From Candidatus Fermentibacterales bacterium (lineage in GTDB: Bacteria; Fermentibacterota; Fermentibacteria; Fermentibacterales; JAFGKQ01): DNA of 6,666 nt. This document shows positions 1 through 4,650 of this stretch, one piece after another. Made by a program: the position numbers and the translations under genes. Every line of letters starts with the position of its first letter. Position 1 is the first letter of the stretch. Below the pieces are notes generated by a model that ran no database searches, had not been told where the DNA came from, and saw only the letters and a program-made list of their open reading frames with translations. The DNA lies in assembly GCA_016928495.1 (NCBI GenBank), contig JAFGKQ010000070.1:1-6666 (forward strand). The letters are read 5' to 3'.

Positions 1-1
1 C

Positions 2-1138
2 GGGACCATCCTCAAGGAGGAGCTCGAGAACCACTGGAAGCGGGCTCACAGAGCCAGCGGCTACCAGCTCGTGTCGACCCCTCACATAGCGCCGGCCGGT
101 CTCTGGAAGACCTCCGGGCACTACGACTACTACAGGGACAACATGTACTTCATCCCCGTGGGCCAGGAGGAGTTCGTCCTCAAGCCCATGAACTGCCCCG
201 GGCACATAGTCATCTACGGGGACCGCAAGAGGTCGTACAGGGAGCTGCCTCTACGGCTCGCGGAGCTCGGCACCGTCTACAGGTACGAGAAGAGCGGCGT
301 GCTCCACGGGCTGATGCGGGTCCGAGGGTTCACAGTAGACGACGGGCATATCTTCTGCACACCTGATCAGATAATCAGTGAAATCCAGAACGTCGTTCGC
401 TTCGCCCTCTACTTCCTGAAGGTATTCGGCTTCGGCTACGAGATAGAGCTGTCCCTGCACGACAGGCAGGACCCGGACCACTACGCGGGAGACATGGATC
501 AGTGGGAGACGGTCGAGAGGTCACTCGCCGACGCTCTGGAGCGGATGGGCGAGTCCTACAGGAGGGCCGAGGGAGAGGCCGTGTTCTATGGTCCCAAGAT
601 AGACATCAAGCTACGCGATGCGCTGGGCCGGACCTGGCAGGGGCCGACGGTGCAGTTCGACTTCAACATACCCGAGCGATTCGATCTCACCTACGTCGGC
701 GAGGACGGGAACGACCACAGGGTGCTGCTGGTGCACAGAGCCCTCTTCGGATCCGTAGAGAGGTTCGTGGGCAACCTGATCGAGCACTTCGCAGGCGATT
801 TCCCGGGCTGGCTGACTCCCCTGCAGGTGGTTATTCTTCCGATTGCGCGCGATCATCAGGCCTACTCGGAGAGCGTCCTGAAGAGCGTCCGCAAGGCCGG
901 GTTCCGCGCAAGTGGCGATTTCAGGAGCGAGACCGTAGGGTTCCGCGTGCGGGAGGCCGAGGAGCGCAAGGTCCCGTTCATGCTGGTGATCGGAGACAGG
1001 GAGGTCGCTGGCGAGCGCGTGGCAGTCCGGAGACACGGGGCGGGCGACATCGGCTCGATGCCCCTGCGGGAAGCGCTGGCCATGATCGAGGACGCATGCA
1101 GGCGTCCGGACATACCGGATGGAGGTTTCGGCTCATAA
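2..1138 (+). CDS. thrS: Threonyl-tRNA synthetase, 3' part (5' end outside window)
   Basis: The enzyme charges tRNA-Thr with threonine in the cytoplasm (class II synthetase). The frame is open from base 2, so the start lies upstream; 378 residues are visible. A full ThrRS is about 640 residues, so the N-terminal TGS and editing domains are missing only because of the window edge. The visible part is the catalytic core followed by the anticodon-binding domain. The three zinc ligands that select threonine are present: Cys in LKPMNCPGH (codon 194), His in DDGHIF (codon 347) and His in LLVHRALFGS (codon 734). The motif 2 Arg (VYRYEKSG) is present, and FGSVERF resembles motif 3. The C-terminal domain starts near LQVVILPI (about 825) and contains VPFMLVIGDREV. 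Two oddities: FTVDDGH where most bacteria have FTQDDAH, and WQGPTVQ where many have WQCxTxQ. The TAA stop overlaps the probable infC start. Identity is very sure. Confidence 0.97.
   Translation, partial: GTILKEELENHWKRAHRASGYQLVSTPHIAPAGLWKTSGHYDYYRDNMYFIPVGQEEFVLKPMNCPGHIVIYGDRKRSYRELPLRLAELGTVYRYEKSGVLHGLMRVRGFTVDDGHIFCTPDQIISEIQNVVRFALYFLKVFGFGYEIELSLHDRQDPDHYAGDMDQWETVERSLADALERMGESYRRAEGEAVFYGPKIDIKLRDALGRTWQGPTVQFDFNIPERFDLTYVGEDGNDHRVLLVHRALFGSVERFVGNLIEHFAGDFPGWLTPLQVVILPIARDHQAYSESVLKSVRKAGFRASGDFRSETVGFRVREAEERKVPFMLVIGDREVAGERVAVRRHGAGDIGSMPLREALAMIEDACRRPDIPDGGFGS
1121..1137 (+). promoter_or_regulatory. Shine-Dalgarno and ATA start of infC
   Basis: GGAGG at 1121-1125 is followed by a 9-base spacer and ATA at 1135-1137, in frame with IF3. 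ATA shares two bases with the thrS stop TAA (1136-1138), giving ATAA. No ATG, GTG or TTG lies in frame between codon 1096 and the conserved IF3 core. In E. coli, infC starts at AUU and IF3 represses its own mRNA by rejecting non-standard start codons. That the same control applies here is inference. Confidence 0.75.
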
Positions 1139-1656
1139 GGAACAAGATCAGGGTCAACGGCGACATCAGGAGCCCGCGCGTGAGACTCATAGACGACGAA
1201 GGCTCGCATGTGGGCGTTGTTGAGATCGGAGAGGCCATGAACATGGCCTCGGAAGCCGGGCTCGATCTTGTCGAGATCTCCGGCAACGTCGATCCTCCGG
1301 TATGCCGGATAATGGACTACGGGAAGTACCGGTATCAGCAGAACAGAAAGGCGAGGGAGGCGAGGAAGAAGCAGCACTCGGGCGGGCTGAAAGAGATCAA
1401 GTTCAGGCCGACTACGGAGCACCATGACTACGATTTCAAGATGAAGCACGCCCGCGAGTTCCTCTCGGACAGGTACAAGGTCAAGGCCACCGTGGTCTTC
1501 AGGGGGCGCCAACTGGTCTACAAGGATCAGGGCAAGGACCTCCTTGACAGACTGGCGGGAGATTTGAGCGATCTTGCAGTGGTGGAGAAGCCACCTGTGC
1601 TCGAGGGACGGCTGATGTCCATGATCCTGTCGCCGGTAAGGGAGAAGAAAGGCTAG
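1135..1656 (+). CDS. infC: Translation initiation factor IF-3
   Basis: IF3 binds the 30S subunit, keeps it apart from 50S and checks the start codon and initiator tRNA. From ATA at 1135 the protein is 173 residues, a normal IF3 length. The N-terminal domain carries [13 protein letters not shown], the signature LDLVEIS and [17 protein letters not shown] basic linker ([10 protein letters not shown]) follows, then the C-terminal domain with [30 protein letters not shown] and a terminal LSPVREKKG. The start was chosen because GGAGG stands 9 bases upstream and the result, [12 protein letters not shown], aligns with known IF3 N-termini. The next ATG upstream (1096) has a purine run only 3 bases away and would add 13 residues unlike IF3. 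The gene is translationally linked to thrS by the ATAA overlap, and rpmI starts 8 bases after its stop. Family call is very sure; the ATA start is likely but unproven. Confidence 0.96.
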
Positions 1657-1664
1657 GATCCACC

Positions 1665-1856
1665 ATGCCGAAGATGAAGACTCACAAGGGGGCCGCCCGC
1701 AGGTTCAAGAGGACCGCCACGGGCAAGATCCGCTGCAGGCACTCCCATGCGAGCCACATAAAGACCAGCAAGAGCGCGAAGAGGAAGAGGAACCTGAGAA
1801 AGCCCGGCCTGCTGTCGTCACAGGACGCCAGGCGGGTCAGGAAGCTGCTTCCGTAG
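1665..1856 (+). CDS. rpmI: 50S ribosomal protein L35
   Basis: L35 is a small basic protein of the large ribosomal subunit. The 63-residue product begins [17 protein letters not shown], the classic L35 start, and continues with [24 protein letters not shown] and a C-terminal [10 protein letters not shown]. Length matches the family (about 64-66). The ATG is preceded by AGGA at 1655-1658, which overlaps the infC TAG stop and leaves a 6-base spacer, so it is placed for re-initiation after infC. rplT follows 22 bases after the stop. In E. coli, L20 represses rpmI-rplT by binding the mRNA upstream of rpmI; no such binding fold can be confirmed by eye here. Confidence 0.97.
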
Positions 1857-1878: not shown

Positions 1879-2232
1879 ATGAGCCGGGTCACCAACGCAG
1901 TCAGCAGGCGCCGGAAGCACAGGAAGACGCTCAGGGCCGCACGGGGTTACTTCGGCGGGCGCGGAAGGCTCTACACCGTTGCCTCCGATGCCGGCAAGAA
2001 GGCACTCGAGTACGCCTATCGCGACCGGAGAACGAAGAAGCGCAACTTCCGCGCTCTCTGGATCACCCGGATAAACGCCGCGGTCAGGCAGCATGGCCTG
2101 ACGTACCGGGATTTCGTATATGGTCTGAAGAAAGCCGGGGTGCAGCTAGACAGGAAGATGCTGGCAGACCTGGCGGTCAACGAGCCGGACGCGTTTGCCC
2201 GGCTCGTGGAGGTGGTCAGAGCCGCCTCCTGA
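1879..2232 (+). CDS. rplT: 50S ribosomal protein L20
   Basis: L20 binds 23S rRNA early in large-subunit assembly, and in several bacteria it represses its own operon. The 117-residue product is full length. It has the basic N-terminal arm ([18 protein letters not shown]), the hallmark [13 protein letters not shown], the segment [18 protein letters not shown], then [20 protein letters not shown] and the C-terminal [22 protein letters not shown] at 1868-1872 sits 6 bases before the ATG and fixes the start. It ends the infC-rpmI-rplT cluster. In many bacteria pheS-pheT come next, but here a small coiled-coil gene follows after 21 bases. Confidence 0.98.
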
Positions 2233-2953: not shown

Positions 2954-2954
2954 G

Positions 2955-2984
2955 CCCTCACTCCTGACGAAGCAGGTGTGAGGG
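2955..2984 (+). terminator. Stem-loop just after zapA; possible U-less terminator
   Basis: CCCTCAC (2955-2961) pairs with GTGAGGG (2978-2984). After a T-T mismatch, CCTG (2963-2966) pairs with CAGG (2973-2976) around the 6-base loop ACGAAG, giving 11 pairs. It starts two bases after the zapA stop, a fitting place to end the thrS-zapA transcript or protect its 3' end. The bases after it (GTGTTCC) are not a T-tract, so intrinsic termination is doubtful. It may instead be the first arm of a longer structured RNA. Confidence 0.45.
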
Positions 2985-3004
2985 GTGTTCCCACGGTCGC
3001 GGCA

Positions 3005-3035
3005 GGCCCGGGAAGGAGCGCAGCCTTTGCGGGCC
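3005..3035 (+). repeat. Stem-loop in the zapA-rny gap
   Basis: GGCCCG (3005-3010) pairs with CGGGCC (3030-3035). After a G-G mismatch, GAAGG (3012-3016) pairs with CCTTT (3024-3028), using one G-T pair, around a 7-base loop. No T-tract follows. It is the strongest single fold in the second half of the gap and lies about 70 bases before the rny start. Confidence 0.55.
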
Positions 3036-3102
3036 GAGGGTCGTCCCTGTCGCAGCACCGTTGATGATAGATTCTCTCTGCGCCCTGAACGGGAGTTGCG
3101 CC

Positions 3103-4650
3103 ATGCCCTGGATAGCATACGTGCTAATGGTGGCGGCCGCTGTTGCGGGGTTCCTGCTCCAGCGGCTGCTCGTCAAGAAGGAGATCGCCGGCGCCGAGAA
3201 CAAGGCTGAGCGTATCGTCGCCGAGGCGACAAGAGAAGCGGAGACCCTGAAGAAGGAAGCGGTTCTCGAGGGCAGAGACAGGATATCCAAGGAAAGGGCC
3301 TCGCTGCTGGAGGAGCAGCAGCAGCGCAGGCAGGACCTCGATGCCAGGGAGCGCGAGCTGCTACGGAAGACCGAGAGGCTCGAGAGGCTGGAGGAGAAGC
3401 TCGACAGGAAGGAATCCGGGCTGGAGTCGCAGGAGAGGAGTCTCTCCGACAGGGAGCAGTCTCTCAGCGCCAAGCAGCAGAGGGTCAACAGGCTGACGGA
3501 GGAGCAGAACAGACTGCTCGAGCAGATAGCCGGCCTCTCCCGCGACGAGGCCAGGAGCCTGCTTCTTTCGAACCTCCAGGAGGAGGCCCAGCTCGAGGCC
3601 GGGCGGCTTTCCAGGCGCATCCTCGAGGATGCCGAGAGGCACGCCGAGGACCAGGCCAACCGCATTCTCGCGACCGCCATCCAGCGATGCTCGGCCAGTT
3701 TCGTCGTCGAGAACTGCGTATCGGTCGTGAACCTCCCCGGCGAGGAGATGAAGGGCAGGATCATCGGACGCGAGGGACGCAACATACGCGCCTTCGAGAA
3801 GGCGTCGGGCGTGGACGTCGTCATAGACGACACCCCGGAGGCCATAGTGCTCTCCTGTTTCGACCCGGTCCGAAGGGAGATCGCGAGGTTGTCCATGGAG
3901 AAGCTGATCTCCGACGGCAGGATCCACCCGGGCCGGATCGAGTCGGTGATAGAGAAGACGTCCGCCGAGATGGAGAGGAAGATGAAGAAGCTCGGCGAGG
4001 ATCTCTGCATGGAGAGCAACGTCTCGGGGCTGAACGCCAGCCTGGTGAGCCTGCTGGGCAGGCTGCGCTACAGGTCGAGCTACGGCCAGAACATGTATCA
4101 GCACTCGCTGGAGGTCGCTCACATCTGTGGTCTTCTCGCCTCCGAGCTCAAGCTGGACTCCTCCGTAGCCAGAAGGGTCGGCCTGCTGCACGACATAGGC
4201 AAGACTGCCGATCACGAGGCAGAGGGCTCCCACGCGATAGTGGGGATGGAGCTGGCGCGGAGGTACGATGAGAGCCCGCTGGTTTGCAACGCGATAGGGG
4301 CTCACCACGAGGAGATGGAGCCGGAGACCCTCTACGCCGTCATCGTCCAGGCGGCGGACGCGGTCAGCAGCGCCAGACCCGGCGCTCGCCGCGAGACTCT
4401 GGAGAACTACGTGCGCAGGCTTCACAAGCTCGAGAGCATTGCCGACTCCTTCGACGGAGTGGGGAAATCCTACGCCATCCAGGCCGGACGTGAGCTGAGG
4501 ATAGCCGTCAAGCCGGAGATCATAGACGATTCCGGAGCGGCCGACCTTGCCAGGGTGGTAGCGAAGAGGATCGAGTCGGAGGTAGACTACCCCGGGCAGA
4601 TCAAGGTCACGGTGATAAGGGAGGTCAGGGCTGCAGAGACCGCCCACTGA
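3103..4650 (+). CDS. rny: Ribonuclease Y
   Basis: RNase Y is a membrane-anchored endoribonuclease that starts mRNA decay in bacteria that use it in place of, or beside, RNase E. The 515-residue length is typical. Residues about 3-19 form one membrane helix (IAYVLMVAAAVAGFLLQ), and about 25-195 a long charged coiled coil. About 200-270 is the KH RNA-binding domain, with GRIIGREGRN starting at residue 218 and VVIDDTPEAI after it. About 330-425 is the HD metal-dependent nuclease domain: His334 in YQHSLEVAH, His363-Asp364 in LLHDIGK, His401-His402 in GAHHE and Asp419 in AADAVSSARPGARRETLE. The C-terminal YAIQAGRELRI and VDYPGQIKVTVIRE are family hallmarks. ATG 3103 was chosen because GGGAG (3091-3095) is 7 bases upstream and the membrane helix follows at once; TTG 3061 and ATG 3064 lack a ribosome site. 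The GGGAG partly lies in a small fold (CCC 3083-3085 with GGG 3091-3093), which might damp initiation. Confidence 0.97.
   Translation: MPWIAYVLMVAAAVAGFLLQRLLVKKEIAGAENKAERIVAEATREAETLKKEAVLEGRDRISKERASLLEEQQQRRQDLDARERELLRKTERLERLEEKLDRKESGLESQERSLSDREQSLSAKQQRVNRLTEEQNRLLEQIAGLSRDEARSLLLSNLQEEAQLEAGRLSRRILEDAERHAEDQANRILATAIQRCSASFVVENCVSVVNLPGEEMKGRIIGREGRNIRAFEKASGVDVVIDDTPEAIVLSCFDPVRREIARLSMEKLISDGRIHPGRIESVIEKTSAEMERKMKKLGEDLCMESNVSGLNASLVSLLGRLRYRSSYGQNMYQHSLEVAHICGLLASELKLDSSVARRVGLLHDIGKTADHEAEGSHAIVGMELARRYDESPLVCNAIGAHHEEMEPETLYAVIVQAADAVSSARPGARRETLENYVRRLHKLESIADSFDGVGKSYAIQAGRELRIAVKPEIIDDSGAADLARVVAKRIESEVDYPGQIKVTVIREVRAAETAH
4619..4633 (+). promoter_or_regulatory. Possible Shine-Dalgarno and CTG start for the prenyl synthase, inside the end of rny
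   Basis: GGGAGG at 4619-4624 is followed by a 6-base spacer and CTG at 4631, in the same frame as the prenyl synthase and with no stop between. It lies within the last codons of rny (stop 4648-4650), so it would couple the two genes. CTG starts are rare, so this is a hypothesis. It is raised because the downstream GTG at 4727 has a poor ribosome site and yields a short N-terminus. Confidence 0.3.

Follow-up and report, generated by a model that had tools for sequence, protein, structure and literature searches.

A very probable ATA start codon for infC, sharing bases with the thrS stop, in a member of the Fermentibacterales

Introduction

Where does translation of infC begin when its reading frame lacks a canonical start codon near the conserved core of the protein, and what might follow if the best-placed codon lies across the stop of the upstream gene? 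This question is raised by a stretch of 6,666 nucleotides (the window), a single contig of a fragmented MAG that is 81% complete. Among named lineages this genome stands nearest to Candidatus Sabulitectum and candidate division Hyd24-12, in the phylum Fermentibacterota. The first part of the window has the classical gene order thrS-infC-rpmI-rplT, the same as in E. coli. The infC product is a full-length IF3 (TIGR00168, 214.6 bits; IF3_N and IF3_C domains), with 8jsg, 5me0 and 5lmn as its relatives in the PDB. The features are as follows; "forced" is defined further below.

1-1138, plus strand: thrS, 3' part of the threonyl-tRNA synthetase gene (ORF in frame 2, stop TAA at 1136-1138; TIGR00418, 458.8 bits)
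1096-1098, plus strand: in-frame ATG, the probable wrong start for a standard gene caller (SD duplex only -5.3 kcal/mol)
1121-1125, plus strand: Shine-Dalgarno sequence (SD) of infC, GGAGG, within thrS (duplex -10.0 kcal/mol; anti-SD CACCTCCTTT in the relatives' 16S rRNA)
1135-1137, plus strand: ATA, very probably the infC start codon (aligned with ATC or ATT in 39 relatives, the start being forced in 34)
1136-1138, plus strand: TAA stop of thrS, overlapping the infC start by four bases as ATAA (direct reading; thrS end at +4 relative to the infC start)
1135-1656, plus strand: infC, translation initiation factor IF3, 173 codons and TAG (IF3_N 106 bits, IF3_C 110 bits)
1665-1856, plus strand: rpmI (L35), the next gene of the operon (ORF; identity by sequence and gene order)
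1879-2232, plus strand: rplT (L20) (ORF; identity by sequence and gene order)

The thrS-infC junction

The DNA of the junction reads GGATGGAGGTTTCGGCTCATAAGGAACAAGATCAGGGTCAACGGC. On direct reading, GGAGG at 1121-1125 is followed by the nine bases TTTCGGCTC (1126-1134) and then by ATA at 1135-1137, and in the tetranucleotide ATAA (1135-1138) the infC ATA and the thrS stop TAA share bases. The IF3 frame runs from 1135 to 1653, with its stop at 1654-1656, and is open upstream as far as 502; the only canonical start nearby is the ATG at 1096, none being found from 1099 to the RVNGDI core. An earlier, sequence-only reading of this DNA had placed the ATA nine bases after GGAGG, fused with the thrS stop as ATAA, in a frame devoid of ATG, GTG and TTG between 1096 and the core, and on all of these points the sequence bears it out.

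How much weight can one such sequence carry? Against a codon and SD background of 65 ORFs of the same genome, taken from 12 contigs and the window, 6 of 196 internal ATA codons (~3%) are preceded at the same spacing by an SD of equal strength (≤ -10 kcal/mol), so that the window sequence by itself is suggestive of an ATA start (about 1 in 30), and it is the relatives that decide. In the same background the isoleucine codon ATA is used at 11.7 per 1000 codons, far above ATT at 2.5, and the GC-rich genome favours AGG for arginine (33.7 per 1000).

Local folding at the junction is unremarkable (z -1.49), and a search of 1000-1900 for an RNA operator returned nothing from Rfam at E values up to 1. 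An inverted repeat, TCCGG-ACATA-CCGGA, lies at 1106-1120, directly 5' of the infC SD and inside thrS codons, and a similar CCGG...CCGG occurs in some relatives of the family designated f3; the repeat is absent from the minimum-energy fold and thus probably reflects codon bias.

The start codon in relatives of the order

The order Fermentibacterales is represented by 41 other genomes; we located infC in 40 of them, and in 39 its 5' end is present. At the position matching 1135, ATC is found in 34 of these relatives and ATT in the other 5, with ATG, GTG or TTG in none of the 39, and every one of them has an SD (GGAGG or a like motif) at normal spacing, with a computed duplex of -9.8 to -12.5 kcal/mol. 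For 34 of these relatives the rare start is forced, which is to say that an upstream in-frame stop is present and neither ATG, GTG nor TTG occurs between that stop and the IF3 core. The 16S rRNA of order relatives carries the normal anti-SD, CACCTCCTTT, which was read there, the copy in the window's own genome ending before the 3' end. Starts in the relatives were read codon by codon; a MAFFT alignment of the entire junction misplaces part of family f2, and for relative L013, where the automatic best-start pick was a spurious upstream ATC, the aligned ATC (SD -9.8) was taken instead.

Because all 39 relatives have ATC or ATT behind a strong SD, with 34 of these starts forced, we consider it very probable that infC begins at ATA 1135. 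The pattern is the one that the sequence-only reading had named as support, a conserved ATA, ATT or ATC together with a conserved GGAGG, and the conserved upstream ATG that it had named as contrary evidence does not occur in the relatives. With its IF3 product, its AUH start (AUA, AUC or AUU) and its conserved SD, the gene is placed by sequence comparison among the rare-start infC genes, and a little-studied phylum is thereby added to them, with an AUH start at every infC 5' end examined.

Within the order, ATA at this position is found in the window alone, the rest having ATC or ATT. The window is the sole genome of its family (f1) in the comparison, and in a tree of IF3 it forms a separate deep branch in the order, the exact placement of which the tree leaves open. 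In family f3 the infC ATC is followed by A, and thrS is 12-15 bases longer and ends in TAA; two of these relatives, L023 and L024, can be aligned with the window at the junction without gaps, placing ATC opposite its ATA and giving a thrS longer by 12 bases. From one genome in the window's family, then, we infer that the ATA most likely arose from ATC, and that the same C-to-A change turned TCA, a serine codon of thrS, into the stop TAA.

Two other accounts of the start have to be weighed against these data. Were infC to start at the canonical, in-frame ATG 1096, IF3 would gain a 13-residue extension, MQASGHTGWRFRL, and the gene a 43-base overlap with thrS. The window sequence alone permits this, the IF3 frame being open upstream and a weak GAGG lying four bases 5' of the ATG (duplex -5.3 kcal/mol), and a standard gene caller would probably pick it. 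The ATG is, however, a by-product of the ThrS codons GCA TGC AGG; the stronger SD at 1121 sits 3' of it (-10.0 vs. -5.3 kcal/mol); f3 relatives have CTG in its place; and in most f2 relatives the frame is interrupted by a stop near the IF3 core. Where an ATG does occur at the matching place, it is followed in L027 by an in-frame TGA after three further codons, and in L040 there is yet a better-placed ATC behind GGAGG. We therefore hold a start at ATG 1096 to be highly improbable, and have rejected it on comparison with the relatives' sequences. Slighter still is the chance that sequencing or assembly put A for a true C at the third base, the real start being ATC. In favour of an error are that the source is one 6,666-base MAG contig and that the other members of the order all have ATC or ATT; but with C, thrS would extend to the TGA at 1181-1183, ~15 codons more and beyond any relative, which argues against a base error, whereas with A it stops close to where the thrS of relatives stops.

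Rare infC starts across Bacteria and in known systems

Is an ATA start at infC then exceptional? When 57 other bacterial families were sampled, each by a single genome, the best infC start was ATC in 17, ATA in 14 and ATT in 11, picks that were made by SD strength, that are certain as non-canonical only if forced, and of which single unforced ones may err. Forced rare starts were found in 28 of the 57 (ATA 12, ATC 10, ATT 5, CTG 1). That ATA is the pick in 14 of 57 families suggests that such a start of infC is nothing unusual among Bacteria, and annotation pipelines restricted to ATG, GTG and TTG will misplace such starts. Among the 36 sampled genomes with a same-strand thrS match in the fetched stretch, seven have a four-base overlap of thrS and infC: GTGA and ATAG twice each, and ATGA, TTGA and CTGA once each. 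The ATAG cases (L160, which is G075, and L169, which is G061) are like the window in having a forced ATA whose last two bases open the thrS stop, and differ from it in that the stop is TAG rather than TAA; they belong to unrelated families.

Retapamulin ribosome profiling has established an AUA start for infC of Staphylococcus aureus (PMC13009471), which resembles the window in its start codon, its extended SD and the autoregulation proposed for it, although the start is assigned by profiling there and by sequence comparison here. In Streptomyces, infC starts with ATC, as in most Fermentibacterota relatives and in contrast to the ATA of the window; it shares with the window an AUH start of a commonly misannotated kind, most Streptomyces infC starts being misannotated (PMC5472188). 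The start in Escherichia coli is ATT, likewise an AUH codon disfavoured by IF3 (PMC5472188, PMC2268962); it is AUU there against AUA here, and regulation was established by mutation there but is inferred here. Reinitiation pairs with ATGA or GTGA (PMC6728339) have the same four-base overlap of stop and start and an SD within the upstream gene, but use a canonical start rather than an IF3-disfavoured one.

With AUA infC starts already published (PMC13009471) and stop/start overlaps recurring elsewhere, the novelty implied by the sequence-only reading was overstated. The infC of the window is almost certainly an ordinary case of a widespread device, a rare start through which IF3 would hold down its own synthesis. 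Neither rare-start autoregulation nor coupling to thrS is new, and what is likely local is the ATC-to-ATA change that would also have made the thrS stop.

Likely autorepression and possible coupling to thrS

In E. coli the rare infC start leads to self-repression by IF3, which lowers initiation outside AUG, GUG and UUG (reviewed in PMC5472188). By analogy, the initiator fMet-tRNA would read ATA 1135 despite mispairing with its third base, held there by the strong SD GGAGG inside thrS, and IF3, by destabilizing 30S initiation complexes wherever the codon is not AUG, GUG or UUG, would repress its own translation through ATA as it does in E. coli with AUU. Since IF3 disfavours such starts, autorepression is to be expected, and we regard it as likely.

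Ribosomes that complete ThrS would come to a halt on the start codon of infC, and termination-reinitiation could in this way couple a share of IF3 synthesis to thrS translation. Such coupling is somewhat favoured on the ground that the infC start overlaps the thrS stop: the two share bases, as is expected of termination-reinitiation pairs, and gene pairs with overlapping stop and start are translationally coupled, usually so in E. coli (PMC6728339). In E. coli, excess IF3 reduces reinitiation, and does so less when an SD is present (PMC2268962). The competing possibility, a serious one although we rate it somewhat below even, is that ATA 1135 is the start but its overlap with thrS has no regulatory meaning, infC being translated de novo from its SD and regulated by the rare start only. 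The SD duplex of -10 kcal/mol may indeed allow infC to be entered by ribosomes that have not translated thrS. The exact overlap, moreover, varies: thrS ends 5-18 bases before the infC start in 34 of 39 relatives and 16-19 bases into infC in five f3 members, so that a four-base overlap is not a conserved requirement. On the other hand, in all 39 the end of thrS lies no more than 20 bases from the aligned start of infC, and the recurrence of four-base overlaps in 7 of 36 unrelated genomes (those with the same-strand thrS match), like the usual coupling of such pairs in E. coli, speaks for a coupled arrangement.

One may go further and regard ATAA as a single combined switch, in which IF3 would be made mainly by 30S subunits just off ThrS, reinitiating on an IF3-disfavoured codon, so that the level of IF3 and the translation of ThrS would jointly set IF3 synthesis. 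Such a layout would have evolved more than once, as ATAA in the window, as ATAG in two further families and as CTGA in another. We consider this unlikely as a whole. For the study of start-codon discrimination by IF3 during reinitiation, the thrS overlap offers a compact natural construct.

Other features of the window

Between rplT and zapA, at 2254-2538, lies a small coiled-coil-like ORF of 94 aa with no Pfam match; having zapA as its neighbour, it perhaps encodes a partner resembling ZapB.

The spacer between zapA and rny (2954-3102; model match 2991-3095) holds a conserved RNA-like element, present in single copy in 39 of 42 genomes of the order and in 0 of 150 outside it, and situated between zapA and rny wherever its surroundings were read. 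A pairing GCGCAGG...CCTGCGC encloses a conserved ATAGA and shows compensatory changes, to GCACAGG/CCTGTGC in L224 and to GCGCGGG/GCCGCGC in L214, L215 and L217. A second conserved pair, CACGG...CCGTT, crosses the first, and the two suggest a pseudoknot just 5' of the rny SD; when the pairing is scored sequence by sequence, the GC-rich members score weakly (shuffle p up to 0.6). The element matched no Rfam family, and a search of the order for 6S RNA came back empty; in E. coli, ssrS adjoins zapA. The element could be a leader on the mRNA of RNase Y or else 6S RNA in diverged form, and, restricted as it is to the phylum, it deserves separate study. The start of rny is listed at TTG 3061, but the in-frame ATG at 3103, behind GGGAG (within 3061-3105), is likelier and gives the usual membrane N-terminus of RNase Y.
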